Positions 50,406-64,000 of a DNA stretch of 64,000 bases are shown here, in pieces. A program made the position numbers and the translations under genes. Within the stretch, counting starts at the first letter, position 1; every line of letters begins with the position of its first letter. A model generated the notes under the pieces. It was not told the origin of the DNA and ran no database searches. It saw nothing but the letters and a program-made list of their open reading frames with translations. Source of the DNA: Rhodospirillaceae bacterium (lineage in GTDB: Bacteria > Pseudomonadota > Alphaproteobacteria > Dongiales > Dongiaceae); NCBI GenBank assembly GCA_008012315.1, contig SSEL01000003.1:124001-188000 (forward strand), read 5' to 3'.

Positions 50406-51209
50406 TTAGAAATCGGGCGAAGCGGGCACTAGGTCAATTTCGAGTGCGTTGGCAAAAGTGGGGCCCTCTTCGTCAATTAACGCCAACCGGACGTAATAGG
50501 GATTTTTGCGATCGATGCGGTATGGCAGCAGCTTATCGCGATATTTTATTTCAATAATGGGCTTCCGCTGAGGCTCCTTAAACAGCACATAGCATTCTCG
50601 CCCAGAAAGCAAAGCAACCGTAATGGGAGAATTTGGATACTCTATTGTCTCGGCCTTACCACGCACTAGATCCGTCAAGACGTTTCTCAGGGCGACAGCA
50701 GCATTCCGATCCTCAAGGGGACTCTTCGGCTCAACACTTTCGATGAAGTGATACAGAACGTTGCTTAGGCCCGTTAAATCTACTGCATGAGCCTGAGCTG
50801 TATCTTGCGTTCGGATCCTCAGACTGCCCGCAAAGGCCGAGCCTACATCGGTGTCAATGTTAACTTTAATGCGACCCTCGGCGACGCATTGCAACCGAAG
50901 GCCAAATATCAAGCGAATTTCCCATGTTTGTGCATCTGACGGAGATTGTTCCTCCGGAAGCTGCTGAACTCCAACTTTGAAACTTTGCTCCGGCTGATCA
51001 GGAATTTGGATTCTTGCGGTCAGCTCTTCGGGCTGGGGATGCTGGAGCGGCGCACGCAACGTCACCACCAGCATCATCTTTTCAAAAGTAGCCGGCAGAG
51101 CTGGTACGATTAGGTCTCTATTATACACACCGATGTGAATTTGCTTGCCATTCGGCTCTTGGCGAATGTCGTCACAAAAGAAACACGCCGCATTGAGGCC
51201 ATCAGCCAT
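50406..51209 (-). CDS. Third gene of putative TA-like operon, unknown function
   Basis: A 267-residue soluble protein I do not securely recognise. The N-terminal 120 residues (FFCDDIRQEPNGKQIHIGVYNRDLIVP) resemble the beta-rich DUF6941-type domain; the C-terminal part (LLSGRECYVLFKEPQRKPIIEIKYRD) is also beta-rich. Its ATG directly follows the stop of the XRE gene (TAAATG), so translation is coupled to the two upstream genes. Composition is more AT-rich than the flanking genome. It could be an effector, sensor or accessory of the module. Confidence 0.65.
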   Translation of the reverse strand: MADGLNAACFFCDDIRQEPNGKQIHIGVYNRDLIVPALPATFEKMMLVVTLRAPLQHPQPEELTARIQIPDQPEQSFKVGVQQLPEEQSPSDAQTWEIRLIFGLRLQCVAEGRIKVNIDTDVGSAFAGSLRIRTQDTAQAHAVDLTGLSNVLYHFIESVEPKSPLEDRNAAVALRNVLTDLVRGKAETIEYPNSPITVALLSGRECYVLFKEPQRKPIIEIKYRDKLLPYRIDRKNPYYVRLALIDEEGPTFANALEIDLVPASPDF

Positions 51210-51779
51210 TTATGCAAATACCTCATTCCGAGCCCATGGCGATGATGTGCCGCGCGACAGCGGGACGCGGCGATCATTTACGCCTGTAATAATTACGTTG
51301 CCCGTGCGCTCAATAATGGATTCAGATGTGATGCTTACTAATTCAATTTTTGTATTTGTTACTGCGAGGCCGGGCATCTGCAGATCGAGGATGCGTGCCA
51401 TTTCGCACAGCACTTGAAAAGAAGCGGTCTGATTGTCCATCGCTTCCCATCGTTGAACCTGCTGCGGCTTCACGTTCAGTTCTCGCGCCATATCAGCTTG
51501 AGACATTCCTTTGGCTATCCGGTGCTGAATGAGCGCCTTAGGCAAATCGCTCCACTCTTTGAGACGGATGCAACTAATGTCACCTGAGGCCAAATGCTCA
51601 AACTCTCGGATCTCACGTGACAAAGACTCGACCGTGCTTTTGAGACCATCGATATAGGCCTGATGTAAACGCTGTGACATGTCATTCGTCGGCCCTGCAG
51701 CCTCAGCCGCAGCGATGGTTTGCTCAAACTTTGCGACGTGATCACGAGCGATCTTCAACTGCTTTGGTGTCTTGATCAT
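51210..51779 (-). CDS. XRE-family HTH protein, antitoxin-like
   Basis: A 189-residue protein. Residues 1-65 are helical and charged (IKTPKQLKIARDHVAKFEQTIAAAE). A helix-turn-helix of the XRE type follows at about 82-135 (HRIAKGMSQADMARELNVKPQQVQRWEA). The C-terminal 50 residues are beta-rich. This layout is typical of XRE antitoxins or repressors that pair with DUF6932-like proteins. It overlaps the upstream nucleotidyltransferase-like gene by four bases and is followed without gap by the unknown third gene, so it probably autoregulates the operon. Confidence 0.78.
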   Translation of the reverse strand: MIKTPKQLKIARDHVAKFEQTIAAAEAAGPTNDMSQRLHQAYIDGLKSTVESLSREIREFEHLASGDISCIRLKEWSDLPKALIQHRIAKGMSQADMARELNVKPQQVQRWEAMDNQTASFQVLCEMARILDLQMPGLAVTNTKIELVSITSESIIERTGNVIITGVNDRRVPLSRGTSSPWARNEVFA

Positions 51780-52216
51780 GGCAAAGTCCTTAAGTCGATT
51801 TCCACAATCCCCTTCGGATTACGGGTGCCTTTGATGAGCTGAAAGAAATCCAACATTGTCTCTCCGGCATACGGAGATGGCCAGATATCAAGCCAAGCCT
51901 CTCCTAGAAACTTGTCCTTCATGGCCTTGCGTTCATTCGAGTAATCAAGAAAGCATGGGTCGAGCATGTTCTCGTCGACCTCAGTCATGGGATAACAAAG
52001 ATCATAATCGCCGGGAGCCGGCTTAGCCGTGGCGAAGCTTCCATCCAGCCACACTTTGGTTGCACCCGCAGCTGCAAGATGACGGCACATGTTTTCCAAG
52101 CCAAGCAATAGATCCCTGCGACGCGCCGAAAAACCCAGAATACGCACAACGTCCTGCCACGTAGCATGGTGAATTCCGGGCTTCAGCGTACCATTGCTAC
52201 GAAATTTCGGGATCAT
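51776..52216 (-). CDS. DUF6932-like nucleotidyltransferase-fold protein
   Basis: A 146-residue protein starting MIPKFRSNGTLKPGIHHATW. The segment LDGSFATAKPAPGDYDLCYP contains a Gly-Ser followed by Asp-x-Asp, the layout of minimal nucleotidyltransferase active sites. The rest (LDPCFLDYSNERKAMKDKFLGE and NPKGIVEIDL) fits the DUF6932 family. As first gene of a coupled three-gene operon with an XRE partner it is a toxin or NTase-effector candidate. The start at 52216 matches the family; the frame continues 11 codons upstream through the inverted repeat. The activity is not established. Confidence 0.72.
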   Translation of the reverse strand: MIPKFRSNGTLKPGIHHATWQDVVRILGFSARRRDLLLGLENMCRHLAAAGATKVWLDGSFATAKPAPGDYDLCYPMTEVDENMLDPCFLDYSNERKAMKDKFLGEAWLDIWPSPYAGETMLDFFQLIKGTRNPKGIVEIDLRTLP

Positions 52217-52219
52217 TTG

Positions 52220-52235
52220 ACAACAAAAATGTTGT
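52220..52235. promoter_or_regulatory. Inverted repeat at the head of the TA-like operon
   Basis: acaac-N6-gttgt lies 4-19 bases upstream of the first start codon of the three-gene operon. It is a candidate operator for the XRE protein, or an mRNA hairpin over the ribosome binding site, since no other ribosome binding sequence is visible there. Confidence 0.4.
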
Positions 52236-52242
52236 GAAAGGG

Positions 52243-52270
52243 TTGACAAAATTCAAGAGTTAAACATAAT
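52243..52270 (+). promoter_or_regulatory. Sigma-70-like promoter pointing right
   Basis: TTGACA (52243-52248) and CATAAT (52265-52270) are separated by 16 bases. It points away from the TA-like operon toward the 3' end of the minus-strand methylase gene, where no plus-strand gene exists. Confidence 0.4.
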
Positions 52271-52276
52271 TTTTCC

Positions 52277-52371
52277 GCCACAAAACTGCTGCACAACTGT
52301 TCTTAGCGGTCGGGCGAGATTAGCAACGCTATATCGGGTATTCAAGGGCGGTAGTTGATCCACCGCCCTTG
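52277..52371 (+). ncRNA. Possible small RNA ending in a strong hairpin
   Basis: A transcript from the promoter at 52243-52270 would begin near 52277 and reach a hairpin with perfect 10-base arms (caagggcggt 52343-52352, accgcccttg 52362-52371) about 95 bases later. There is no T-run after the stem. The hairpin could instead terminate the minus-strand methylase transcript. This call rests only on promoter plus hairpin. Confidence 0.22.
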
Positions 52372-52380
52372 TACAAACAA

Positions 52381-53220
52381 TCAGAGCAGATATAGACCAC
52401 TCGTCGGTGGCGTAGCTGAAATGATTAATTCCAGAGCCCTTTGCCCAGCCCCTCTTTCTTTAGTCCCCATCGAGTAAGTCGTCTCCACCTCGATGAAGTG
52501 AAACCCGGCGAAGCACTCGCGAACGCCGTTCGCGTCGTTGAGGGATAGCAGGAATCGACCCTGCAGTTTCCGGAGCCGGGCGGCCAAGTCGTAGAAATCC
52601 GATCGCGTGAAATCCGAGCCGTAGTCCTTCTCACAGCCCCAATAAGGCGGGTCGAGATAGAACAGCGTGTCCGGACGATCATAGCGATCGATGAGATCGC
52701 GCCACGGTAAGCACTCGACAATGACGCCTTCAAGGCGCCGGCCGAGATCCTCGATGTGCCGGACAGCCGCCCTCGCCCGCAGGCGAGATCCGCCGGCGAC
52801 ATCAACGCCGAAGGATGGATTCTTGGCTTTCCCGCCGAAGGCTTGGCGCTGCAGATAGAGGAAACGCGCGGCACGCTCGATGTCGGTCAGGACATCCGGC
52901 GGCGTGCGCTTGAGGCGATCGAACTCGTCACGACTGGAGAAGCTCCAGCGATCGACGGCCTCGACGAAGGCCGCCCGATGCCGCTGCGCGACCCGGAACA
53001 TGGTGACCAGGTCACGATTGATATCGTTGATGACCTCGGCCGGCGGCGCGTAATGCCGGCGGAGGAAGACGCCGCCCATGCCGATAAAGGGCTCCACATA
53101 GGTCTTGTGCGGAATCTCGGCGATGAGGTCGACCAGGCGCTGCGCCAGGTGGCGTTTGCCGCCAAGCCACGGCGCGATCGGTTCGACCGGTGCGACCGGC
53201 CGTTGATGATTGGACTCCAT
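52381..53220 (-). CDS. Phage-type DNA adenine methyltransferase (D12 class)
   Basis: A 279-residue Dam-like N6-adenine methyltransferase. It has the AdoMet motif VEPFIGMGGVFLRR near residue 43, the target-strand segment VINDINRDLVTMFR, and the catalytic DPPY in LFYLDPPYWGCEKDYG. Such orphan methylases are common in prophages, where they protect DNA or alter expression. The recognised site is not predictable here; GATC is typical for relatives. It is isolated on the minus strand between the TA-like operon and hicAB. Confidence 0.88.
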   Translation of the reverse strand: MESNHQRPVAPVEPIAPWLGGKRHLAQRLVDLIAEIPHKTYVEPFIGMGGVFLRRHYAPPAEVINDINRDLVTMFRVAQRHRAAFVEAVDRWSFSSRDEFDRLKRTPPDVLTDIERAARFLYLQRQAFGGKAKNPSFGVDVAGGSRLRARAAVRHIEDLGRRLEGVIVECLPWRDLIDRYDRPDTLFYLDPPYWGCEKDYGSDFTRSDFYDLAARLRKLQGRFLLSLNDANGVRECFAGFHFIEVETTYSMGTKERGAGQRALELIISATPPTSGLYLL

Positions 53221-53366
53221 TAACTCTTTCCGTTAGTAAGCACCCGCCCCTGCAGGGGTGGCGGGACGGCCTGGGATCGGCCGGTTTCAGACGTGCGTGC
53301 GCTAACACGCGGTTAGGGGCGTTGCCTCGCCCCTTCCCCCGCCCGGCCGAGACCGAGTGGAATTTT

Positions 53367-53432
53367 TATGCGCAAATATTTGCGCATTCCATCTTGACGG
53401 TTTCGCTTGTTATGCGCATATATCTACGCATA
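53367..53432 (+). promoter_or_regulatory. hicAB promoter with two matched inverted-repeat operators
   Basis: Two inverted repeats have the same layout: TATGCG-N10-CGCATT at 53367-53388 (its central 20 bases are a perfect palindrome, 53368-53387) and TATGCG-N10-CGCATA at 53411-53432. A -35 TTGACG (53394-53399) and -10 CATATA (53417-53422) with 17-base spacing lie so that the second repeat covers the -10. This is the expected arrangement for HicB autorepression. Confidence 0.75.
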
Positions 53433-53451
53433 GACAGGGGGGGGGAACGAA

Positions 53452-53643
53452 ATGCCGAAAGCCTATAGCAGCCGCGAATTGATCAAGTTGATTGAGGCGG
53501 ACGGCTGGTATCTGGTCGGCACGGTCGGCAGCCACAATCAGTACAAGCACCCGACCAAGGCCGGCCGCGTGACGGTCCCTCATCCGAAGAAGGATTTACC
53601 CACCGGCACCGTCCGGTCGATCATGAAGCAAGCCGGGCTCTGA
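53452..53643 (+). CDS. hicA: HicA-family toxin (mRNA interferase)
   Basis: A 63-residue double-stranded-RNA-binding-fold mRNA interferase. The conserved catalytic His is His28 in VGSHNQYKHPTK, and the C-terminal HPKKDLPTGTVRSIMKQAGL is the usual HicA ending. A G-rich run ending in GGGGGAACGAA precedes the ATG. The antitoxin gene starts 28 bp downstream. Toxin activity stops translation until HicB binds it. Confidence 0.93.
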   Translation: MPKAYSSRELIKLIEADGWYLVGTVGSHNQYKHPTKAGRVTVPHPKKDLPTGTVRSIMKQAGL

Positions 53644-53671
53644 GAGCCCGGCGGCCGCCAAGGAGAGCGAG

Positions 53672-54142
53672 ATGCTGGATTACTACATTGCCCTGATCCA
53701 CAAGGAAGCCGGCTCGGATTACGGCGTCATGCTTCCGGACTTTCCCGGCTGCGTCTCGGCCGGCGCCACCTATGAGGAGGCGATCTCGATGGGCACCGAG
53801 GCGCTCGCGCTGCACGTCGCCGGCATGATCGCCGATGGCGCGGCCGCTCCCGCCCCGCGCGACCTGGAGGCGATCAAGGCGGCCGGCGAAGACTGGGTGG
53901 ATTGGGAGGGCGCGATCGTCACGGTCATCCCCCTGCTGCCGATCGCCCAGGGCAAGCCGCAGGCAACCAATCTCTCCCTCGATACCGGCCTGGTCGAAGC
54001 CGTCGACCAATACGCCCACCGCGCCGGCCTGACCCGCAGCGCCGCCTTCAGCGAGGGCGCCCGCCTGCTGATGCAGACCCGGCCGGCCGGCAAGGCCGAT
54101 CTACCTGTCCGGAACAAGAAGCCGGCCAAGCGGGCGAGCTAG
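53672..54142 (+). CDS. hicB: HicB-family antitoxin
   Basis: A 156-residue antitoxin. The N-terminal half is the degenerate RNase H-like fold (YYIALIHKEAGSDYGVMLPDFPGCVSAGATYEEAI) that neutralises HicA. The C-terminal part (ATNLSLDTGLVEAVDQYAHRAGLTRSAAFSEGARLLM) is a ribbon-helix-helix DNA-binding domain, which would bind the paired inverted repeats upstream of hicA. GGAGAG precedes the ATG. Confidence 0.93.
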   Translation: MLDYYIALIHKEAGSDYGVMLPDFPGCVSAGATYEEAISMGTEALALHVAGMIADGAAAPAPRDLEAIKAAGEDWVDWEGAIVTVIPLLPIAQGKPQATNLSLDTGLVEAVDQYAHRAGLTRSAAFSEGARLLMQTRPAGKADLPVRNKKPAKRAS

Positions 54143-54198
54143 GGCAATCCCTACAAGTCGCGGCCGATCGCCGACCTGAACCACCAGGAATAGGGCCG

Positions 54199-54234
54199 TT
54201 GACTCTGGCACGGAGATGAGAACATTTTAGGAAC
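54199..54234 (+). promoter_or_regulatory. LexA box and promoter of the zinc-ribbon/SRAP pair
   Basis: GAAC-N7-GAAC at 54220-54234 matches the alphaproteobacterial LexA consensus exactly. A TTGACT -35 at 54199-54204 puts the -10 at about 54222-54228, inside the box, so LexA binding would block RNA polymerase. Confidence 0.72.
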
Positions 54235-54306
54235 ACTTCAGACGCAATCATCCTCGGAGATGGGTCCTGAAATGGCCAGGATCAGACAGCGCAACAGAGA
54301 TTTGCC

Positions 54307-54690
54307 ATGACCCCGACCTACCGCGTCTATTGCCAAGGTCAGGTCTCGACCTTGGGCCAGGTCGGCAAATATAAGCTGGTCGCGACCTGCCAGAACTGTG
54401 AGCATCGAAGCTCACTGCAGGTCGAAGACCTGATCAGCAGACACGGTGAGAGTTGCACCTTGAGTGAGGTGCTGCGGCGGCTCAAATGCCAATATTGCCG
54501 GCATCGACGCAGCAAGGACGCTTATTCAGTCGTGTTGACGGTCGACGATGAGGATACGGTCAAGCGGATGGCTGGCGGCCGCAAAGGGTTTCTTCCAGGT
54601 AAATTCGGGCGCTTCGAGTGGCTGAGCGCAGATGATGAAAGAGTCCAGGTAGCACGCAGGCGACAGCGACAGCGCCTATTGGGATACTGA
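54307..54690 (+). CDS. SOS-linked four-Cys zinc-ribbon protein, unknown function
   Basis: A 127-residue basic protein. Two cysteine pairs, CQNC (about residue 29) and CQYC (about 61), form a likely zinc ribbon; between them is LQVEDLISRHGESCTLSEVLRRL. The C-terminal tail is Arg-rich (VARRRQRQRLLGY). No family is securely recognised. It lies 73 bp downstream of the LexA box and 18 bp upstream of the SRAP gene, so it is probably damage-inducible and co-transcribed with it. DNA or RNA binding is an inference from charge and zinc ribbon. Confidence 0.75.
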   Translation: MTPTYRVYCQGQVSTLGQVGKYKLVATCQNCEHRSSLQVEDLISRHGESCTLSEVLRRLKCQYCRHRRSKDAYSVVLTVDDEDTVKRMAGGRKGFLPGKFGRFEWLSADDERVQVARRRQRQRLLGY

Positions 54691-54707
54691 AGAGGCAGGA
54701 GAAATCC

Positions 54708-55379
54708 ATGTGCGGACGATACGTCTTTATCTCAAATGTCGATGCCATCAAGCAGCTGTTCCTGTTCGACAACCTGCCAAATCTAGCACCGCGCTATAAC
54801 ATCGCCCCCACACAGCAGATCCCGATCGTGCGATCAACAGGCGATGGCCGCGAGATGGTCAATGTCCGCTGGGGATTGCTGCCCTTCTGGCTGAAGGAAG
54901 CGCCCAAGGGACCGCCGGTCATCAATGCCAAGGCCGAAGGCATCGAGGCCAAGCCGATGTTCCGCGCGGCGATCGCCAAGCGCCGGTGCCTGGTGCCGGC
55001 CGACGGATTCTATGAATGGAAGGGTCCCAAGGACGACAAGCAACCCTATTTAATCAGATTGGCGACGCGAACGCCGTTCGCCTTTGCTGGCGTCTGGGAA
55101 CGCTGGAAATCGCCCGAGGGAGAAATCGATAGCGCCGCCATCCTGACCTGCGAGCCGAACAGCCTGATGGCTGAAATCCACAACCGCATGCCGGTCATCC
55201 TCGATCCCAGCGAGTTCGACGCCTGGCTTTCCGATAAGACGCCACAAGCCGAAATCGGAGGAATGATCGACCCGTTCCCAGCTGAGCAGATGCGCGCCGA
55301 GCCCGTCTCCAAAGCGGTCAACAGCGTCAAGAATGTCGGTCCGGAGTGCATCGAGCCGCTCGAAGCCGGCGCCGTCTAG
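54708..55379 (+). CDS. yedK: SOS response-associated peptidase (SRAP/YedK/HMCES)
   Basis: A 223-residue SRAP protein, which forms a covalent, protective thiazolidine crosslink to abasic sites in single-stranded DNA. The N-terminus MCGRY provides the catalytic Cys2 after Met removal. Other active-site marks are YNIAPTQ, INAKAE (Asn), DGFYEWK (Glu) and IHNRMPV (His). AGGAG precedes the ATG. Co-transcription with the zinc-ribbon gene from the LexA-box promoter agrees with SOS control. Copies are common in prophages as well as chromosomes. Confidence 0.94.
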   Translation: MCGRYVFISNVDAIKQLFLFDNLPNLAPRYNIAPTQQIPIVRSTGDGREMVNVRWGLLPFWLKEAPKGPPVINAKAEGIEAKPMFRAAIAKRRCLVPADGFYEWKGPKDDKQPYLIRLATRTPFAFAGVWERWKSPEGEIDSAAILTCEPNSLMAEIHNRMPVILDPSEFDAWLSDKTPQAEIGGMIDPFPAEQMRAEPVSKAVNSVKNVGPECIEPLEAGAV

Positions 55380-55471
55380 CTCCGCACGGCATCGCTCACG
55401 ACCTACTGCCCGCCATCTTGGCTTCGATCGCTTGGTGAGATAGGCTTCCTAAGCAAATTGGGGATATCCAC

Positions 55472-55912
55472 GTGACGAAGTTTATTTTTCTGGCGGCCTT
55501 TTGCGGCCTATTGAGTGGTTGCGTCAGCGCGAACATGCACACCTATGGTACACCCGACGCATCCGAGCATTCAGTTACCGTCCCGCCGGGCGGCGGATTG
55601 ACCGCCGAAATCAAGGAAGTATTCAAGAGGAACGGCTGGACCATGGTCGTCGACCGGGGACCGCAAGTAATGGAAGGATCCTCCGGGACGAATACGCACT
55701 TGGAGAAATACGACACCTTCAATACCAGATACCGATTGATGATGAATTACAGCCAGTTCGACATTTGCCTTGGCCACATGGACGGGGCCTATAATTACGA
55801 CATGTCGTTCGTCGACAATAAAACCGGCGAGGAGCTCATGGCCATGGGTGGTCGAGCCTGCCAAAGCCAGATCCTCGACAAACTCCAACAGTTCCTTAGC
55901 TCGTCAAAATAA
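55472..55912 (+). CDS. Small predicted lipoprotein, unknown function
   Basis: A 146-residue protein beginning with a lipoprotein signal (FLAAFCGLLSGC, Cys at about 17). The mature part has an alpha/beta pattern (LTAEIKEVFKRNGWTMVVDRG) like small outer-membrane lipoproteins with a sensory or structural role. No family is recognised. It begins with GTG at 55472 after a weak ribosome binding site, and is convergent with the PLD nuclease gene. Confidence 0.65.
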   Translation: MTKFIFLAAFCGLLSGCVSANMHTYGTPDASEHSVTVPPGGGLTAEIKEVFKRNGWTMVVDRGPQVMEGSSGTNTHLEKYDTFNTRYRLMMNYSQFDICLGHMDGAYNYDMSFVDNKTGEELMAMGGRACQSQILDKLQQFLSSSK

Positions 55913-55960
55913 CGCCAGACTTGCGGGCGTTGAGAGTAACCGGCGGCTCGCTTGCGGCGG

Positions 55961-56491
55961 CTACTTGCGCTTATACGGTTTTGAGACGGCCGCTCGGGAC
56001 TGCCAGTTGGCGAGGTATTGTCTTGCCAACTCGGCGTCGCGGATCACCAGCAGGTTTTCGGCGTTCCTTTCCTGCGCGGCCTTCGTGAAGTTGAAGCTGC
56101 CGGTGATCACCGTGCTGCCATCAATCACCATCACCTTATTATGCGCAATCGCGACCTTGTAGTCGATTGCCACCGGTACGCCGGCGTTTTGCAGGTACGT
56201 GGCGCCGGTGTATTTCGCGGTCGCCTGGCTCTTGTCGAGGATGACCTTGACATCGACGCCACGGCGATGCGCGTCGGCGAGAGCCTTGGCGATTGGCGCA
56301 GAGGTGAAGCTATAGGCTTGCACCCTGATGTCATGCTTCGCACTGCTAATCGCATTGACAATCAATTGAGTACAGGCACCGCCGGGTGTGAAGCATGGCG
56401 TGATGGCTTGAGTAGCGCCCGCCGAAACCGTCGAAGACCACGACGCGGCGACAGCCACAAATAATGCAAAAGCGAATCGGATAGTCAGCAT
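55961..56491 (-). CDS. Exported phospholipase D-family nuclease (Nuc-like)
   Basis: A 176-residue protein with an N-terminal signal peptide (MLTIRFAFALFVAVAASWSSTVSA) and one HKD motif, HNKVMVIDGSTVITGSFNFTKAA, at about residues 115-138. Single-HKD proteins of this size, such as plasmid Nuc, work as dimers and cut DNA non-specifically, often in the periplasm. FTPGGACTQLIVNAISSAKHDIRVQAYSFTS is the family's first conserved block. ATG at 56491 is preferred because it starts the signal peptide; the frame runs 12 codons further upstream. Confidence 0.88.
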   Translation of the reverse strand: MLTIRFAFALFVAVAASWSSTVSAGATQAITPCFTPGGACTQLIVNAISSAKHDIRVQAYSFTSAPIAKALADAHRRGVDVKVILDKSQATAKYTGATYLQNAGVPVAIDYKVAIAHNKVMVIDGSTVITGSFNFTKAAQERNAENLLVIRDAELARQYLANWQSRAAVSKPYKRK

Positions 56492-56864
56492 ACCCCACCA
56501 TAAGCACGACCCATCGGGCAAAGCCATCGAAAGAGCGTCACCGACTGAAACTTAACTTCAACCAGGTCATCAGCCAGCGTTCACAGAACTGATCGAGCCT
56601 GTTTTGATCCAAAAGTTTTCGATCTTTGTTTGAAATATCAAATTTTTCAGGATCATTTTCTTCGGTACCGACCCAAGACAAATATAACCGAATTAAACGG
56701 TCAACTCTTAAAATTATAACTGATCATTCTCTCCAATTAGGGCGTCCTCATACTATCGTATTACTCGCATATCTTTTCATCATATGCTTGTTTTCCTTCA
56801 TCACCATCCCGTAGATTCGGAGGGACCCTCACAGGTCACGGTGGGAGAATTGGGGTGAGGCCGA
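56492..56864. other. AT-rich intergenic region before the sulfotransferase gene
   Basis: A 373-bp stretch much richer in A and T than its surroundings. It has a 62-codon plus-strand frame (56626-56814) ending in a hydrophobic segment, but it lacks a ribosome binding site and convincing homology, so it is not called. The right end carries GGTGAGG before the sulfotransferase start. A promoter for that gene is expected here but no clear box pair was found. Confidence 0.4.
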
Positions 56865-57719
56865 ATGACACTCTACAAGCGCCTTTATCGCGCGATAGAG
56901 GCTGGTGATCGTTGGGTTTTGAATGCGTTGGAGCCGCGGGCCTTTCCGGCGCGCGGATTGAAACTGCCACCGATTTTCATCGTGGCGCTTCCTAAGACCG
57001 GCAGCGTCTATATCCAACGTGCGCTTCGCAGCACGCTGCAAATTCAGCGCGGCGAGATTCGCTTAGGTGGCATTGTTGATATCACGTTCGACTGGAACAG
57101 TCTCGTGAGGTTTTCTCGCGGCAATGCATTGACGCGCGTCCATTTGCCTCCACGCAGTCATCTTCTCTACGCCCTGAGGCAAGCCGGCGTCGCCAAAATC
57201 GTCCTGCACCTGCGCGATCCGCGAAGCCAGATCATCTCGTGGACCCGACATGTCGACCGGTCCATCGCGCAGCGCGGCTTAGCAAGCGGCATGCTGGACT
57301 GTCAGCAGGTGCTCCCCAGTGACTATGCGTCGTGGTCCTTCGAATCCCGCCTCAAGTGGCAGGTGGATAACCAGTTAGAGGGCTTTGTTAAATGGACGGA
57401 GAACTGGCTTGATCTGTCTCAACTACAACAGGGACCGGAAACCCTGGTCACGTCCTATGAAGACTTTTCGCGATCGCCGGCCGACTATGTAAGGAAGGTT
57501 TGCAGCTTTTATAATATTCCCTTGGGTCAGGGATGGCTCAGGCTGCCAGCGATGGCTATCGGGTCCAACAACATATTCCACAAGGAAGCGAAATCACCGG
57601 TGGAGATCATGGGGCCAGATCTTTACGAGCAAGCCAGCGCCGCGATTCCGGCGACCCTGGCCCAGCGATTCGGGTGGCTGACGTCAGCATCCGTCAAGTT
57701 AGACATGCAAGCGCCGTAG
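56865..57719 (+). CDS. Sulfotransferase-like protein
   Basis: A 284-residue protein with the PAPS-binding layout of sulfotransferases: the 5'-phosphosulfate loop FIVALPKTGSVYIQRAL near residues 37-53 and the 3'-phosphate segment VLHLRDPRSQIISW near 112-125. The rest (VTSYEDFSRSPADYVRKVCSFYNI) agrees with the late conserved region of the family. The acceptor is unknown; surface glycans or lipids are typical. It stands alone on the plus strand beside minus-strand phage genes, so it may be cargo that modifies the host surface. Confidence 0.78.
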   Translation: MTLYKRLYRAIEAGDRWVLNALEPRAFPARGLKLPPIFIVALPKTGSVYIQRALRSTLQIQRGEIRLGGIVDITFDWNSLVRFSRGNALTRVHLPPRSHLLYALRQAGVAKIVLHLRDPRSQIISWTRHVDRSIAQRGLASGMLDCQQVLPSDYASWSFESRLKWQVDNQLEGFVKWTENWLDLSQLQQGPETLVTSYEDFSRSPADYVRKVCSFYNIPLGQGWLRLPAMAIGSNNIFHKEAKSPVEIMGPDLYEQASAAIPATLAQRFGWLTSASVKLDMQAP

Positions 57720-57722
57720 GTA

Positions 57723-57745
57723 CGTCACCTTCACAAAAGGTGACG
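57723..57745. terminator. Stem-loop between convergent genes
   Basis: Perfect nine-base arms cgtcacctt and aaggtgacg around a five-base loop, lying across the stop codon of the minus-strand gene and four bases after the sulfotransferase stop. It has no T-run, but its position suggests a two-way terminator. Confidence 0.55.
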
Positions 57746-58237
57746 AAGGATCATCGAGATGACGGCCCCGATGCCGCAACCAAGCGCGAACAACCCGACG
57801 CTGACGAACGCCGCCGCCTTATAGGCACGCTGCGCATCAAGGCGAGCCCATTCCGATCCGATATTCTTGAGGCGATGATACCAAGCCTCCTTTCGCCACA
57901 CCGCCAGCAGCGACAGCCAGCCGTCATCAGTGACGGTCATCGGGCCAACTTCCGTCGCGCCGCCCGTCACGATCTTGACGTTGTCGCGGTCAGCGACGAT
58001 CAGCGGACGATCGAGAAACAGCCGGCACCAGTGCTCATCGAGGCTGGGATGAAACCAGCCCCAGAAGTGCTGCAGGCGTTCGACATTCTGCGGGTCTTTC
58101 GTGCCCAGCAGATACGAGCACCAGGACCAGGCGCCGCCGGCAAAGATCACCGGCAGCATCACCGCCTCGCGACAGGCATGCAGTGTGGTTTGGAGCCAGC
58201 CGATAGCGACCGCCCAGATATTGCGAATCCAGTTCAT
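57731..58237 (-). CDS. Phage membrane protein, unknown function
   Basis: A 168-residue protein with two likely hydrophobic regions: IWAVAIGWLQTT to MLPVIFAGGAWSW near the N-terminus and FVSVGLFALGCGIGAVISMIL near the C-terminus. No family is recognised. GAGGTAAG precedes the ATG, only nine bases after the Rz1 stop, so it belongs to the lysis transcript. It could help lysis or superinfection exclusion. Confidence 0.6.
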   Translation of the reverse strand: MNWIRNIWAVAIGWLQTTLHACREAVMLPVIFAGGAWSWCSYLLGTKDPQNVERLQHFWGWFHPSLDEHWCRLFLDRPLIVADRDNVKIVTGGATEVGPMTVTDDGWLSLLAVWRKEAWYHRLKNIGSEWARLDAQRAYKAAAFVSVGLFALGCGIGAVISMILRHLL

Positions 58238-58245
58238 GACTTACC

Positions 58246-58560
58246 TCAGGGATGATTGGCAGTGGCAGGCTGGCCCTGATACCAAAGGCGCAGCGCTTCG
58301 AGTTTTGCCCGGCAATCCCGGCCGGGGATGGCGATGTCGACGATCAGCGCAGCCTGCGTTTGATCGTCCATCGCCTGAATCGCCTCATCGGACGGGATCG
58401 GCGGTTCCGGCAGGCAGTTGAGGAGGCTTTGATCCGGCTTGACCTGCACCTCCTGGATTTTGGTCACCACGATCGGCGGCGCGGCCTTCGGCTGTATCTC
58501 GCAGCCGCTGCCAAGCATGAACGCTATAAGGGCCAATGGGATTGTTCGGGCCTTGCACAC
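58246..58560 (-). CDS. Rz1-like outer-membrane spanin lipoprotein, overlapping Rz
   Basis: A 104-residue lipoprotein read in a different frame from the end of the Rz gene and extending past it. The GTG at 58560 gives VCKARTIPLALIAFMLGSGC with lipobox Cys20. The mature part is Pro-rich (PKAAPP, CLPEPPIPSD), typical of Rz1. It joins Rz across the periplasm to fuse the membranes at the last step of phage lysis. The exact start is inferred from the signal length. Confidence 0.75.
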   Translation of the reverse strand: MCKARTIPLALIAFMLGSGCEIQPKAAPPIVVTKIQEVQVKPDQSLLNCLPEPPIPSDEAIQAMDDQTQAALIVDIAIPGRDCRAKLEALRLWYQGQPATANHP

Positions 58561-58927
58561 GGCGGATTTCCCCCTTGATGGTTGCGGCCGTCTCCTGGCG
58601 CCTGGCGGCCTGTTCGGCCGCACCTTGCGCGAGGCGGTCCATTGAATTGCGCAGATCATCGATCTTGCGCTGCAGGTCGGCATTGGCGGCGTTGACACGC
58701 TCGATCGTCTCCGCATTGGCCTGCCAGGCATCGCGCTCGGCTTCCGCCGCCTTTTGCTCGGTGACGGCCTTCGCCGTCGCCGCCTCCGCCACCCATCGGT
58801 TACCGCGCTCCCAGGCATAGAGCCCGGCCAGCGCCGCGATCACCAAGCCGACCGCGATCCAGGGCAGCAGCTTCTTGAGCATGCTCGCCCCGGCCGCGCC
58901 GGCCGCCTCCCCCAAAATCATCGTCAT
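58385..58927 (-). CDS. Rz-like inner-membrane spanin
   Basis: A 180-residue type II membrane protein: a single transmembrane segment (LLPWIAVGLVIAALAGLYAW) near residues 20-39 and then a long periplasmic coiled coil (TAKAVTEQKAAEAERDAWQANAET onward to about 110). GGGAGG precedes the ATG, which directly follows the transglycosylase stop (TAGATG). The 3' part shares 176 bases with the Rz1 gene in another frame. This is the standard nested spanin layout. Confidence 0.8.
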   Translation of the reverse strand: MTMILGEAAGAAGASMLKKLLPWIAVGLVIAALAGLYAWERGNRWVAEAATAKAVTEQKAAEAERDAWQANAETIERVNAANADLQRKIDDLRNSMDRLAQGAAEQAARRQETAATIKGEIRRVQGPNNPIGPYSVHAWQRLRDTAEGRAADRGDQNPGGAGQAGSKPPQLPAGTADPVR

Positions 58928-59374
58928 CTATTGGCCTCCCAACCGGCGCTGCCAGTCGGCAATGCGGTCGACATAGGTGATTGTTTCGCGCGCGTGTCGG
59001 CCGGTGACATCCGGCAGGCAACGCGCGACGACTGACCACGACTGGCCAGGGCAGAGCCGCAATGCCTTGCGGACGTTGCCGGGCCCGGCGTTGTAGCCGG
59101 CTTGAGACATGCGATGCCGCTCCGGATCCTGCCACCACCGCCAATCCGGGAAGCGCCGCATCTTGCCCATGTAATAGGCGCCGGCATCGATCGCGGACGA
59201 AGGGTCGAACGCCGTTCGCGTGCCGAGGCCGAGCTCGGCCGCAACCTCGCGCCAGGTGCCCGGCATGAATTGCGCCAGGCCCTTCGCGCCGACCGGCGAC
59301 ACGGCTTTCGGATCGAGACCCGATTCCTGGCAGAGCTGCGCCTTCCAGGCGAGCGCTGCGACCTGCAGCGACAT
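58928..59374 (-). CDS. Phage lytic transglycosylase (SLT domain), start uncertain
   Basis: Endolysin of the soluble lytic transglycosylase type, which cleaves peptidoglycan glycan strands. The catalytic Glu is in CQESGLDPKAVSPVGAKGLAQFMPGTW, followed by DPSSAIDAGAYYMGKM and MSQAGYNAGPGNV. The ATG at 59374 gives 148 residues, but the preceding in-frame codons (DLQIAAAAARWWQD) look like the normal start of this domain, so translation may begin upstream, for example at a GTG at 59488 inside the next gene. No clear signal peptide is seen, so export may rely on a holin. Confidence 0.8.
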   Translation of the reverse strand: MSLQVAALAWKAQLCQESGLDPKAVSPVGAKGLAQFMPGTWREVAAELGLGTRTAFDPSSAIDAGAYYMGKMRRFPDWRWWQDPERHRMSQAGYNAGPGNVRKALRLCPGQSWSVVARCLPDVTGRHARETITYVDRIADWQRRLGGQ

Positions 59375-59420
59375 GTCTTGCCACCAACGGGCGGCGGCAG
59401 CGGCGATCTGCAGGTCGTAG

Positions 59421-59756
59421 TCAGCTGAGAAGCATGACGCAGCCGCCGAAGGCGAAGATGGCCAGGATGCGCAGACCGAGATACACACTGACAGCCAGAT
59501 TACCCTTGCGAATCTCACTCCATTCCTCCCTGAAAGAGATGCCGGCGCGCCAATCCAGCCAGCGTGACGCCATGACGAGCCCATAGACGGTCGCCGCGGC
59601 CAATGTGAGCCGCAGGACGTTCCGATAGATGCTGGCATCGAGATAGCCGCTGGCTTCCGGCAGGTGCACGGCGGCGACCACAACGGCGACGAGCAAGGCC
59701 GGCAGGAATAGGAGCCGGACGAAGGCGGCGATCGCCGTCCCGATAAGTTTCCACAT
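59421..59756 (-). CDS. Small phage membrane protein, holin-like
   Basis: A 111-residue protein with three likely transmembrane segments (FVRLLFLPALLVAVVVAAVHL, LTLAAATVYGLVMA, VYLGLRILAIFAFGGCVMLL). Location next to the endolysin and spanin genes suggests a holin or pinholin role, but no family is certain. AAGGAC precedes the ATG at 59756; the frame runs 40 codons further upstream into the next gene and is not used. The next gene upstream ends two bases before this start. Confidence 0.65.
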   Translation of the reverse strand: MWKLIGTAIAAFVRLLFLPALLVAVVVAAVHLPEASGYLDASIYRNVLRLTLAAATVYGLVMASRWLDWRAGISFREEWSEIRKGNLAVSVYLGLRILAIFAFGGCVMLLS

Positions 59757-59757
59757 G

Positions 59758-59943
59758 TTACTTGTCCTTTGGGTTTGCTGATGACGGCCGGCGCGGCACG
59801 AAGCGCCGGATGTCTTCGGTGAGCTGCCAGGCCTGATCGGCCGGCAGGTTGAGGATTTCGGGGAACTGACCGTCATCGATGGTCAAAGCAACCCCGTCAT
59901 CGGTCGGCTTCACCGACCAATGTGCTTGTGTTCGGATTGGCAT
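59758..59943 (-). CDS. Small phage protein, unknown function
   Basis: A 61-residue soluble protein beginning MPIRTQAHWSVKPTDDG and ending in a basic tail. It lies without gaps between two membrane-protein genes of the lysis region, which supports it as a real gene. No homologue or function is recognised. Confidence 0.55.
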   Translation of the reverse strand: MPIRTQAHWSVKPTDDGVALTIDDGQFPEILNLPADQAWQLTEDIRRFVPRRPSSANPKDK

Positions 59944-59945
59944 GC

Positions 59946-60263
59946 TCAGCCTTTGTCGACGAAGCGATCGACCAGCCGCGTCAGCAGGGCCTGGATACCG
60001 GCCGGGCCGAGATAGGACACCATAATGACGACGGCGGTTGCCGGCTTGGGATCGAGATGGAAGTACTCACCGATGCCATCGGCGACGAAGCCGCTGGCCA
60101 AGGCCGTCGGTAGCTCCCAGAGCAGATGCGTCGACCAGAATTTCCGTTCGCGCTTCTGGACCTGCCGCACATGCCAGCCCAGCCGCCCCATGCAGGCGAA
60201 GGCCAGCGTCGTGACGAAGCTCCACACCGCCTGACGCAGGTCAGGCGGCAATAAATTGTCCAT
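59946..60263 (-). CDS. Putative phage holin
   Basis: A 105-residue protein with an N-terminal hydrophobic helix (AVWSFVTTLAFACMGRLGWHV), a central amphipathic stretch (LLWELPTALASGFVADGIGEYF) and a second hydrophobic helix (TAVVIMVSYLGPAGIQALL). The order and size resemble phage holins of proteobacterial prophages, which release endolysin by making inner-membrane holes. GGGGGA precedes ATG 60263. The position at the start of the lysis genes supports this. Confidence 0.68.
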   Translation of the reverse strand: MDNLLPPDLRQAVWSFVTTLAFACMGRLGWHVRQVQKRERKFWSTHLLWELPTALASGFVADGIGEYFHLDPKPATAVVIMVSYLGPAGIQALLTRLVDRFVDKG

Positions 60264-60330
60264 TATGTCCCCCAAGAGTCGATCAGACACGGCGGCGCTT
60301 AACAGCAACCCGCTCGATGGCGGTTTGATG

Positions 60331-60588
60331 TTACGAATTCACCACATAAGAGCCCGGATCGGTATCGTTCGGGCATCGGAGCATGAGTTCGGCGTGCCGG
60401 TCCGGTATGATATTGTAGGTATCCAAAAGCCGGTCGCACCAATATGCGTACGACGCCTGCGTCATGTTCGGAACGAGAATGATCGTTCTATCGAACGCGA
60501 TACTCTCGGTGCTGCTGCCCAATCTCAGGCTATAAAGCGACTGCAACTCAAGATCCGAAAGTGAAGAAAGAAACTCCGATGTCCTCAT
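60331..60588 (-). CDS. Small phage protein downstream of tail fibre, unknown
   Basis: An 85-residue protein (MRTSEFLSSLSDLELQSLYSLRLG) with no recognised family. Its ATG at 60588 lies one base after the tail-fibre stop, so the two are coupled. By position it could be a fibre-assembly or host-range accessory. Composition is less GC-rich than the neighbouring genes. Confidence 0.6.
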   Translation of the reverse strand: MRTSEFLSSLSDLELQSLYSLRLGSSTESIAFDRTIILVPNMTQASYAYWCDRLLDTYNIIPDRHAELMLRCPNDTDPGSYVVNS

Positions 60589-60589
60589 C

Positions 60590-62239
60590 TCAACCCCGCG
60601 AGAAATTAAAGCGGCGCTCAAGATAGACATAGTCTATCTCCATCGACCTATTTGTCGTTCCTGCGATCTTATTGATTCTTGCGACAATTGCCCGGCTTCC
60701 TGTTTGGATATTGGTGGTAATGGTTGCCGCCGGTACCCCATCGACAGTGAACCCGATAGAAGTTGCTCCCTCATTCAACGTGAACCCCAGGTTCTGATAT
60801 GCGGTCGTTACGGGAATGCCTGTAATAACTGTCGTTTCTACGGTACTCCTGACGGAACATGCCAACCAGTTAGGACTGACCGCAGAGTTGTATCGGAAGT
60901 AAATTCCGTTAAATGGCGACAGCGATGACACGAAATCAGAAAAGCCGATCAGGAGTTGATAATTGTCGGTCGCATCGGAGAGGGCCGACAATTTGAGGCG
61001 GCACTTGAATGTGATCGCGCCATTAGTTCCCAGGGAAAACGAGGCACCGCCTGTTGCGACAAACGCAGTGCCAGCATTTGTTGTGCCAGTTTCAAATAGC
61101 TTAGAACCGATCGTATTTGCATTGTTGCTGTTGCTGACCGTCGCACCTGTTCCACTCTGCGATGTTGCTAGCCCGAGCGGACCAATGTTTGACGAGGCCG
61201 TGCTCATGAAGTCTTCAAAAAAGATGCCATCAGCAATCGGGTCACTTCCGCCACCGGCGCTGGCCGGACCCCGGATGTCGACAGCATCCGCAATTGTGCT
61301 GGTGAACCCCGCCGATCCGACATACTTGCCGATCGCCGGCTTCGCGCCAGTGCCACCGGCCCAATCAATCACCTGCTGCACGCGCCGATCGCCGTCGGCA
61401 ATAACCGCGAAGACCGGCGACCAGCCATCGTCGCCATCGTCACCATCGGACCCAGGCTGACCCGGATCGCCGGGATCACCGGTCGCCCCACGGATATCGA
61501 CGGCATCGCCGATCGCATCAACCAGCCCAGCCACACCGACATACTTGCCGGTCGCCGGCTTCGCGCCGGTGCCGCCGGCCCAATCAATCACCTGCTGCAC
61601 GCGCCGATCGCCGTCGGCAATAACCGCGAAGACCGGCGACCAACCATCGTCGCCATCGTCACCATCGGACCCAGGCTGACCCGGATCGCCGGGATCACCG
61701 GTCGCCCCACGGATATCGACGGCATCGCCGATCGCATCAACCAGCCCAGCCACACCGACGTACTTGCCCGTCGCCGGCTTCACGCCGGTACCGCCGGTCC
61801 AGTCAGTCACTTGCAGGACCCGTCGATCATTATCCTCGGCAATAGCGAAGACCGGCGACCAGCCGTTTACGCCATCGGCGCCGTCGGCACCCGGCTGACC
61901 GTCTTCACCGTCGTCGCCAGCAGGACCGGGATCACCAGGATCGCCATCGGCGCCGGCTGTGCCACGGATGTCCACGGCGTCGCCGATCGCATCAACCAGC
62001 CCAGCCGCACCGACATACTTGCCGGTCGCCGGCTTCGCGCCGGTGCCACCGGCCCAATCAATCACCTGCTGGACCCGCCGACCGCCGTCGGCAATGAGGG
62101 CGAAGACCGGCGACCAGCCGTTCATGCCATCGGCACCCGGCTCGCCCGGATCACCATCTGCGCCCTTCGGTCCACGATTAACGACAACGGGTAGCGCAAC
62201 CAATTGCTTCACGACGGCGACCAAGTTGATGCTCGTCAT
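60590..62239 (-). CDS. Collagen-like phage tail fibre
   Basis: A 549-residue tail-fibre protein. The N-terminal part has four copies of a module: a collagen-like Gly-x-y run rich in GDPGDPG and GDDG, then GWSPVFAxIADGxRRVQQVIDW and TGKYVGxAGLVDAIGDAVDIRG. From about residue 300 the C-terminal domain (IFFEDFMSTASSN to YVYLERRFNF) has a jelly-roll-like sequence that resembles carbohydrate-binding domains of tail proteins. It should trimerise and bind the host surface. The next gene ends four bases from its start. Confidence 0.82.
   Translation of the reverse strand: MTSINLVAVVKQLVALPVVVNRGPKGADGDPGEPGADGMNGWSPVFALIADGGRRVQQVIDWAGGTGAKPATGKYVGAAGLVDAIGDAVDIRGTAGADGDPGDPGPAGDDGEDGQPGADGADGVNGWSPVFAIAEDNDRRVLQVTDWTGGTGVKPATGKYVGVAGLVDAIGDAVDIRGATGDPGDPGQPGSDGDDGDDGWSPVFAVIADGDRRVQQVIDWAGGTGAKPATGKYVGVAGLVDAIGDAVDIRGATGDPGDPGQPGSDGDDGDDGWSPVFAVIADGDRRVQQVIDWAGGTGAKPAIGKYVGSAGFTSTIADAVDIRGPASAGGGSDPIADGIFFEDFMSTASSNIGPLGLATSQSGTGATVSNSNNANTIGSKLFETGTTNAGTAFVATGGASFSLGTNGAITFKCRLKLSALSDATDNYQLLIGFSDFVSSLSPFNGIYFRYNSAVSPNWLACSVRSTVETTVITGIPVTTAYQNLGFTLNEGATSIGFTVDGVPAATITTNIQTGSRAIVARINKIAGTTNRSMEIDYVYLERRFNFSRG
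61371..62063. repeat. Tandem 219-bp repeats within the tail fibre gene
   Basis: Marker sequence acctgctgca recurs at 61371, 61590, 61809 (diverged) and 62064, so the unit is 219 bp (73 codons), with the last interval 255 bp because the collagen stretch is 12 codons longer. The first two units are nearly identical over about 170 bases, with one mismatch seen. Confidence 0.9.
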
Positions 62240-62622
62240 CGCGTGACCTCCGCAATTACCGTGAAATTGCCCATGATCAGCGTCGTCACGACGCCCTCAG
62301 GCGAGCGAATTTCAAGGTCATAGACATAGTTTTCAGTGATAGGGAAAACACCGCGATCACACGGCACCGGAATGTCCTTGGTCTGGGCCGGCAACAGCGA
62401 GATCGCGACGACACCGGCATCAGCATCGATCGTAATGCCGGTGCCCTCGGTCGAGAGATCCAGCACTGGCACCGGATCAGCGACGCGCTTACGCACCTGC
62501 ATGCGGGCCGAATAGCCGGCGAGCGGCAGCGGTGGACCGCTTTCGCTGTTCTGGTGCGTCTCGATCGACACATCCAGGCTGTCGCCCTGGCGGCATTCCA
62601 GGTTTGTCAGCAGCGCCGTCAT
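62236..62622 (-). CDS. Phage tail-associated protein, unknown function
   Basis: A 128-residue protein (MTALLTNLECRQGDSLDVSIET) with a beta-rich pattern (YSARMQVRKR, VVAISLLPAQTKDIP, NYVYDLEIRSPEGVVTTLIMGNFTV). It resembles small structural domains found beside tail fibres. The ATG at 62622 overlaps the DUF4376 gene stop by four bases. Its own stop codon overlaps the start of the fibre gene by four bases. The role is inferred from position only. Confidence 0.65.
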   Translation of the reverse strand: MTALLTNLECRQGDSLDVSIETHQNSESGPPLPLAGYSARMQVRKRVADPVPVLDLSTEGTGITIDADAGVVAISLLPAQTKDIPVPCDRGVFPITENYVYDLEIRSPEGVVTTLIMGNFTVIAEVTR

Positions 62623-63161
62623 GCCGAGCGACTCGCAATTTCCGCCAGCAACGCCGCGTCGACGGCCTCGACGGTGATTAGCTCGCCTGCCTCGATCCTG
62701 AGGCCGACAGCCTCCTCCGCCGCGAAGCAGGCTTGGATATGAGCGCCGAGCGCGTTGAAGATCGCGGTGATGGTGGCGAGATCGACCGCCAGCCAACCGG
62801 CCTCCGACTTGAACCGGACGGTCTCGGCCGGATTGGCGTCGAGATAGGCTTTAGTTCCGTTGATTAGGGATTTGGAACGGTCATCCGTCGCAATGCGAAC
62901 GCCGTTCACTTGCATGCCACCAGTTTCGATTTCCCAGCGCTGCGCCGCCAGATTTTCCAACAGATCAGCCTTGCTGGGCGGGACCACATCAACCGGCGGA
63001 TTGGAAAACGTGCCCGACGCTGCATCCCAAATCTGTCCGATGCTGGCGGTGTCGGATTGGACAACGAACAGGCCATCAGCGAGCGGAAAGTCATCCGGCT
63101 TTGCCAATTCGATGACATTCGCGACCACATTGGTGGCGGCAAGGATAAGGGCATGTCGCAT
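62619..63161 (-). CDS. DUF4376 phage tail protein
   Basis: A 180-residue protein. The first 55 residues carry the short beta-strand tail-protein start (ANVIELAKPDDFPLADGLFVV then GQIWDAASGTFSNPP). The C-terminal 110 residues, from LAAQRWEIETGGMQVNGVRIATDDRSKSLI to ALGAHIQACFAAEEA, match the DUF4376 domain common in phage tail genes, probably related to fibre assembly or attachment. It lies eight bases after the glycine-rich gene. Confidence 0.82.
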   Translation of the reverse strand: MRHALILAATNVVANVIELAKPDDFPLADGLFVVQSDTASIGQIWDAASGTFSNPPVDVVPPSKADLLENLAAQRWEIETGGMQVNGVRIATDDRSKSLINGTKAYLDANPAETVRFKSEAGWLAVDLATITAIFNALGAHIQACFAAEEAVGLRIEAGELITVEAVDAALLAEIASRSA

Positions 63162-63169
63162 GGTTGCTC

Positions 63170-64000
63170 CTAGGCGTCGTACTCTTCAATGATCAGGAAG
63201 CCGTCACTGCCGGCGGCACCGTTCGCAACTGCTGCTACCGTGTTGTAAACGGGATTCGCTCCAGTCGGGCCGGCACCGGAGTTGGGATCAGGTGCAACGC
63301 CCGCCATCGTGGCGGCGGTCAAGCGGCCCGGCGGCCCATAGCTCCCATAGGGCCCTGGCGAGGCGGCTCCCGGCAACACCTCGACAAATGTCGACCATTG
63401 CGGATTTGTGTATCCTGGCGAACCCGATTGGCCGCGCAGGTTGATGTCGCCGCCGATGCCGACGCCGCCGTCGCCCGTATTTGAACCGGGTGCACCTGAC
63501 GTGACCGACACGCCACCTTTGCCCCCGGTGGCCTGAAAATAGGGTGCGGTGCCGAAACTTGTGACACCACCATTGCCGCCATCGGTCGTTGATGTTCCAG
63601 CCGTGCCACCGGCGCCAACGAGATAGGGTTCGGTTGGATCCAGATCGGCAACCAGAAAGGACTTCATGGAAGCACCGCCGGCGCCGCCGCCGCCTCCAAC
63701 CGGAGACATCGAAGAGCCGCCCTTAACACCACCGGAGCCGCCGGAAGGACCATAGCACCAGACATCGATGCGCTTGGTCGCCGGCAGCAAGTCAGTCGCC
63801 TTGGTCAACGTGCCACTGGAGATAAGCTTCCGCCGGCGCAACAGCCGCCCCGTCGGCGCGCCTTGAATGATCTGCAGGATCGCTTGATACATCTGCGCGT
63901 CATTACCGGCATCAAGGGGTATTCCTGCGCCGAGGATTACATTGACGATTTCCTCCTGGACACGATTGTGCCAGTGGTGATCGAGGTCGGTGCCGAAAGT
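63170..64000 (-). CDS. Glycine-rich phage tail protein (5' end beyond window)
   Basis: The frame stays open to the right edge of the window, so the true start lies beyond base 64000; an internal ATG at 63892 is not the start. The upstream codons give HHWHNRVQEEIVNVILGAG then DAGNDAQMYQAILQII, a motif well known in phage tail-fibre/spike N-terminal parts. The C-terminal 200 residues are very glycine-rich (GGGGGAGGASMKSF, GGTAGTSTTDGGNGG), likely a receptor-binding tip built of glycine-rich loops. Confidence 0.8.
   Translation of the reverse strand, partial: TFGTDLDHHWHNRVQEEIVNVILGAGIPLDAGNDAQMYQAILQIIQGAPTGRLLRRRKLISSGTLTKATDLLPATKRIDVWCYGPSGGSGGVKGGSSMSPVGGGGGAGGASMKSFLVADLDPTEPYLVGAGGTAGTSTTDGGNGGVTSFGTAPYFQATGGKGGVSVTSGAPGSNTGDGGVGIGGDINLRGQSGSPGYTNPQWSTFVEVLPGAASPGPYGSYGPPGRLTAATMAGVAPDPNSGAGPTGANPVYNTVAAVANGAAGSDGFLIIEEYDA

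Follow-up and report, generated by a model that had tools for sequence, protein, structure and literature searches.

A LexA-boxed gene pair encoding a predicted zinc ribbon and SRAP, and the LexA linkage of the zinc-ribbon family in Alphaproteobacteria

Introduction

Little is known, to our knowledge, about the partners of the bacterial proteins of the SRAP/YedK/HMCES family (PF02586). In YedK, an Asn, a Glu and a His residue open the abasic site and form a thiazolidine crosslink (PMC9436759). Aravind et al. (2013) named SRAP and proposed its autoproteolysis, and the accessible part of their paper describes two uncharacterised Zn-chelating, Zn-ribbon-like domains found in SRAP-Ku neighbourhoods (PMC3765255). 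Another described system that is close to the one presented here is the LexA regulon of Caulobacter crescentus, which has the same operator, GTTC-N7-GTTC; the paper on this regulon names no member of the protein family studied here (PMC12700426).

In this work, a stretch of 64 kb of DNA from an alphaproteobacterial genome (the window) was analysed, in which a LexA box precedes the genes for a small CxxC protein, called ZnR below, and for an SRAP protein. A search of the open-access literature, with subscription papers mostly outside its reach, returned no description of a LexA-controlled zinc-ribbon family in Alphaproteobacteria.

Results

The features of the locus are listed in Table 1. The initial annotation had described a perfect GAAC-N7-GAAC box followed by a gene for a basic protein with CxxC pairs and an Arg-rich tail and then by an SRAP gene, and it was right about all three elements, including the coordinates of the locus and the 127 residues of the first protein. 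In ZnR, the two CxxC pairs are separated by 30 residues and the tail is basic; a gap of 17 bp separates its gene from that of SRAP. The SRAP protein matches PF02586 with an E value of 6.7e-71, covering positions 1-214 of the 214 of the profile, and the alignment shows that it retains Cys2 as well as the catalytic Asn, Glu and His (MCGRY, VINAK, DGFYEW, EIHNRMP). It is a full member of the SRAP/YedK/HMCES family and the gene itself shows no difference from it; what is unusual is the company of the partner gene and the LexA box. The box had also been placed within the promoter. It does lie upstream of the ZnR gene, but the promoter is not proved, as a consensus scan called none at threshold in this region and there is only the candidate TTGACT hexamer, which, with a spacer of 17-18 nt, would set the -10 region inside the LexA box. 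The 16-codon ORF found between the box and the ZnR gene ends in an ATGA that overlaps the ZnR start, an arrangement resembling translational coupling, and small ORFs are present after the LexA box in other ZnR operons too.

Table 1. Features of the ZnR-SRAP locus (positions within the window)
Feature	Position	Strand	Remarks
Candidate -35 hexamer, TTGACT	54199-54204	+	Inferred by reading the sequence
LexA box GAACATTTTAGGAAC, alphaproteobacterial GAAC-N7-GAAC type	54220-54234	+	Sole exact match within the 64-kb window
16-codon ORF MGPEMARIRQRNRDLP	54260-54310		Between the box and the ZnR gene
ZnR, 127-aa basic protein, C28xxC31 / C61xxC64, Arg-rich C-terminus	54307-54690	+	ORF
Shine-Dalgarno sequence of SRAP, AGGAG	54697-54701	+	6 bp 5' of the SRAP ATG
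SRAP/YedK gene, 223 aa, intact	54708-55379	+	PF02586

Taken singly, the box in the window is at chance level, because shuffled sequences lead to expect about 1.4 exact matches per 64-kb window (one was observed) and across the genome the bare motif shows no enrichment, with 107 matches compared to 158 for the reversed motif. Its position is unusual, however: by our own arithmetic, 107 sites in 5.72 Mb amount to a chance of about 0.2% that any one gene has a box in the ~110 bp ahead of it. In the same assembly, the motif is located 68 bp upstream of lexA and 15 bp upstream of imuA, and it also precedes the gene for a UvrD-like helicase and two radical-SAM genes of repair-linked type. Judged by its sequence context, GAAC-N7-GAAC is a working operator class in the source genome. 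The radical-SAM genes (L270 and L271) are of the TIGR03916 and PA0069 families, the former being linked to uracil-DNA glycosylase, and their LexA boxes lie 24-27 bp upstream.

Among 385 alphaproteobacterial genomes searched with a profile made from eight seeds, 66 contained ZnR relatives. The kinship of the window protein to this family is real though distant, since a model of the canonical members that excluded it still recovers it (E 2.4e-9 for 5000 sequences). The invariant core consists of two CxxC pairs about 29-33 residues apart, and the four cysteines are invariant in the three alignments A1, A3 and A4. One paralogue in the same genome (C23), which lacks both an exact box and an adjacent SRAP gene, is 58% identical to the window ZnR; with a dN of 0.36 and a dS near saturation, both are, by these estimates, under purifying selection. 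No close relative of the window ZnR was found by exact-peptide scans of viral contigs, GTDB contigs, plasmids and phages, and the subtype, with its only 58% paralogue in the same genome, is therefore rare.

Comparison of ZnR with Pfam, NCBIfam and PHROGs produced no match above cut-off. The HypA profile PF01155 gave weak matches in 17 of 68 relatives (best E 6e-4), the window ZnR being unmatched. The structural model of the family (pLDDT 84, and above 90 for residues 21-80) has strands around both CxxC pairs and forms a small ribbon that includes two short helices, while the model of the window protein itself is poorer (pLDDT 68). ZnR is accordingly modelled as a zinc ribbon, with the two CxxC pairs on ribbon-like hairpins, that is predicted to bind zinc. 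Sequence and fold searches of the PDB returned only sub-threshold zinc ribbons (best Foldseek E 0.026, best Z 3.8), and these nearest, non-significant shapes are ribbons of very different function. Because all fold matches were sub-threshold, no function was assigned to ZnR from its fold. Nearest in shape to the family model, at a non-significant level, are the HypA-type, MCM and archaeal Trf zinc ribbons, in which, likewise, short strands and helices connect two CxxC knuckles; no sequence family links them to ZnR above cut-off.

The upstream regions were inspected in two sets of ZnR loci. The first comprised 69 relatives with 200 bp of upstream sequence, gathered by protein similarity and blind to the boxes. 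An exact box was present within these 200 bp in 32 of the 69, and the reversed motif in none; the other controls gave two matches downstream, 1/65 at 1 kb upstream and an average of 0.4 in letter shuffles. The second set, which partly overlaps the first, comprised 80 loci from GTDB genomes representing closer and named relatives. Here, 75 loci had an exact box within 250 bp upstream, compared to two with the reversed motif, 0/75 far upstream and none downstream, and each of the five loci without an exact box had a box with one mismatch. The orientation was GTTC in 57 cases and GAAC in 18, and the boxes were mostly located 30-130 bp before the match. A divergent neighbour does not account for them, because one upstream gene on the same strand is common to 62 of the 80 loci. 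The commonest box, GTTCTTGTTATGTTC, found at 22 of these loci, is identical to the LexA box at two mitomycin-C-induced promoters of Caulobacter (PMC12700426), and the 15-mer of the window, GAACATTTTAGGAAC, is found unchanged before ZnR-SRAP operons on plasmids of Sinorhizobium medicae and Ensifer adhaerens. Given these counts, we are nearly certain that the ZnR family is under SOS control. Linkage of the zinc-ribbon gene to LexA boxes in other genomes, which had been anticipated, was thus borne out in both sets (controls 0 and 2). The proposal of a new SOS component is likewise well supported by the family-wide boxes, with the amendment that ZnR counts as an independent SOS gene, usually standing alone and not as half of a pair.

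In the Mesorhizobium-type ZnR genes, the box is farther off, and what follows it is either an ORF of 70 codons or an extended N-terminal part ahead of the ribbon. Seven such loci (L307, L308, L310, L311, L317, L320 and L321) share a near-identical stretch around GGAATATGTTCCTTATT, with one variable base, that sits downstream of a LexA box or a box remnant. The conjugative plasmid pMLb of Mesorhizobium japonicum (L344:1201-1962) has the arrangement box–70-codon ORF–ZnR, without SRAP, and the same ZnR gene is found on 12 Mesorhizobium plasmid records, in up to three places each. Another genome (G132) has three near-identical ZnR copies without LexA boxes (L085, L086 and L087), whose surroundings are repeated as if they had spread with a mobile element.

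The source genome includes four SRAP genes, three of which follow ZnR genes behind a box: the one in the window and those on two further contigs, C58 and C12. At C58 (L047:3131-4091), the box is followed by ZnR and SRAP in one open frame, with an internal Shine-Dalgarno sequence and an ATG before Cys2. The arrangement at C12 is box–ZnR–ZnR–two small ORFs–SRAP, one of the small ORFs having two further CxxC motifs. The fourth SRAP gene (C79) has neither ZnR nor box. An in-frame ZnR-SRAP gene is also present in genome G189 (L136, reverse strand 3239-2346), with AAGGAGG before a GTG at Cys2, and ZnR is adjacent to SRAP in genomes G023 and G110. Adjacency was seen in four genomes, while a rough estimate of the expected number is about 0.04. 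One more stopless frame spanning ZnR and SRAP was noted in L335 (about 1425-2298); its SRAP part starts M-T-N-R and looks shortened.

The pairs found in PLSDB are on plasmids, several of them conjugative. Plasmids of S. medicae, E. adhaerens, Sinorhizobium CCBAU 05631 and S. fredii have the order box–small ORFs–two ZnRs–SRAP, and those of Tardiphaga and Agrobacterium salinitolerans the same order with one ZnR. The A. salinitolerans operon has ligD close by, comparable to the SRAP-Ku operons in the accessible part of PMC3765255. Bradyrhizobium septentrionale has a ZnR-SRAP pair without an exact box, Bradyrhizobium sp. 195 one with a single distant box match, and Paracoccus tegillarcae a box followed by a two-CxxC gene, a candidate ZnR, and SRAP. 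In the main chromosomal lineage of ZnR, SRAP is next door in only 1 of 80 loci, so ZnR does not depend on an operon with SRAP. By these arrangements, the ZnR-SRAP pairing is real but not general: the expectation of the same gene pair in other alphaproteobacteria held for several lineages and failed for the main one. SRAP was present somewhere in the genome in 51 of 52 genomes with ZnR and in 108 of 237 without it. This is weak evidence, because genome size is a confounder: most of the SRAP-less genomes listed are small.

Two broader ideas about SRAP were discarded. A LexA box was present at 3/30 and 2/42 alphaproteobacterial SRAP genes in two samples, and the notion that SRAP is generally SOS-boxed in Alphaproteobacteria was rejected on these numbers. 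The notion that phages carry the ZnR-SRAP pair was not borne out in 11 viral SRAP loci, where neither ZnR nor box was seen.

The SRAP of the C12 operon (L046:4064-4729), which is behind a LexA box, has Pro in place of Cys at position 2 and keeps the Asn, Glu and His; Cys2 is kept in all 69 other SRAPs checked. The N-terminal Pro is reminiscent of the Fpg/Nei AP-lyases. The C2A mutant of YedK has lyase activity (PMC9436759). By analogy, the C12 protein may act on abasic sites as a lyase instead of protecting them.

Within window positions 50406-64000, the ZnR-SRAP pair lies between HicAB plus a D12 DNA methyltransferase on one side and phage-type genes on the other, the latter encoding an Rz-like spanin, an SLT transglycosylase, and collagen-like and glycine-rich proteins. 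This content suggests that the region is a prophage or a prophage remnant. The C12 locus adjoins a phage baseplate-V gene.

Discussion

The gene content, the LexA box, the family-wide SOS linkage and the recurrent linkage to SRAP are supported by the sequences analysed. The explanation that best accounts for them as a whole, to which we give a probability of roughly 55%, is a LexA-repressed ZnR-SRAP operon in which ZnR is an accessory at the lesions handled by SRAP. RecA on single-stranded DNA would induce the self-cleavage of LexA, freeing the box, and one mRNA would then yield ZnR and SRAP. SRAP would open abasic sites in single-stranded DNA and crosslink to them via Cys2. ZnR, a small basic ribbon holding one zinc, would most likely bind single-stranded or gapped DNA and serve at the same lesions, e.g., by recruiting SRAP to the DNA or by keeping hold of the site until it is repaired. 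ZnR would be a separate SOS gene in most alphaproteobacteria, acting with an SRAP encoded elsewhere, and mobile DNA would have brought the two together in one operon. We infer the zinc binding, the DNA binding, the contact with SRAP and the accessory role. Since ZnR is a small basic ribbon, should be induced with repair genes and is recurrently joined to SRAP, it most likely binds single-stranded or damaged DNA and helps SRAP. The idea of the initial annotation that both proteins work together on damaged DNA is plausible on this basis; joint action on DNA lesions is a tentative proposal that we hold at somewhat less than even odds.

The ZnR family may include the Zn-ribbon-like domains of Aravind et al. 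(2013), which are also encoded beside SRAP in DNA-repair operons. In the accessible part of that paper, these domains are tied to Ku operons, and neither LexA boxes nor a stand-alone family is reported (PMC3765255).

The bare motif being at chance level in window and genome, the box could be a chance match and the two genes merely adjacent; this is barely credible, as the box is conserved family-wide against null controls and homologous plasmid operons are preceded by the same 15-mer. ZnR could also be an SOS-induced factor acting on the transcription or translation machinery, e.g., a ribbon that binds to the ribosome or to RNA polymerase and slows growth while repair proceeds, in which case its joining to SRAP would reflect shared regulation only. 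ZnR usually stands alone, as such a factor might, and a translation recovery factor and a release-factor ribbon are among the structures that match the shape of the family model best, albeit at a non-significant level. Caulobacter offers a precedent, as its small-protein SOS checkpoints of growth and division (SidA, DidA) are known. However, MCM zinc-finger folds, which are seated on DNA, match the model about equally, and the recurrent SRAP adjacency in unrelated lineages, together with two shared frames, argues for a functional link with SRAP. We consider a role on this machinery unlikely, if worth keeping in view.

The genomic setting raises the question of whether the operon is cargo of mobile elements that shields incoming or replicating single-stranded element DNA, during conjugation or prophage replication, instead of serving cellular repair. 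The location of the window pair, with the HicAB/DNA-methyltransferase region on one side and lysis and tail-like genes of phage type on the other, the phage gene adjoining C12 and the plasmid pairs from PLSDB fit this idea. Nonetheless, the main ZnR lineage resides on chromosomes and its gene neighbourhood is conserved (the upstream gene shared by 62/80 loci), it has the strongest LexA linkage of all (75/80), and no ZnR lies beside the 11 viral SRAPs, all of which makes a cargo function distinctly improbable. We give very little credence to a stricter version of the partnership, in which ZnR is a dedicated SRAP partner and the in-frame genes (C58, G189) also yield a ZnR-SRAP polypeptide activated by an SRAP peptidase cut before Cys2. 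If true, it would provide the disputed SRAP "peptidase" with a natural substrate and a damage-gated switch.

ZnR is a conserved, uncharacterised family, and in a broad chromosomal lineage, which includes the cultured Nisaea, Thalassobaculum, Tistlia and Rhodovibrio, almost all of its members have a LexA operator. This makes ZnR a strong candidate for an SOS gene that has been missed, and it probably belongs to the SOS response as a component so far overlooked. The recurrent joining to SRAP points to where its job may be, the tolerance of abasic sites in single-stranded DNA, and also gives a lead to the partners of bacterial SRAP. The in-frame ZnR-SRAP genes, in turn, open the long-standing question of SRAP autoproteolysis to testing.
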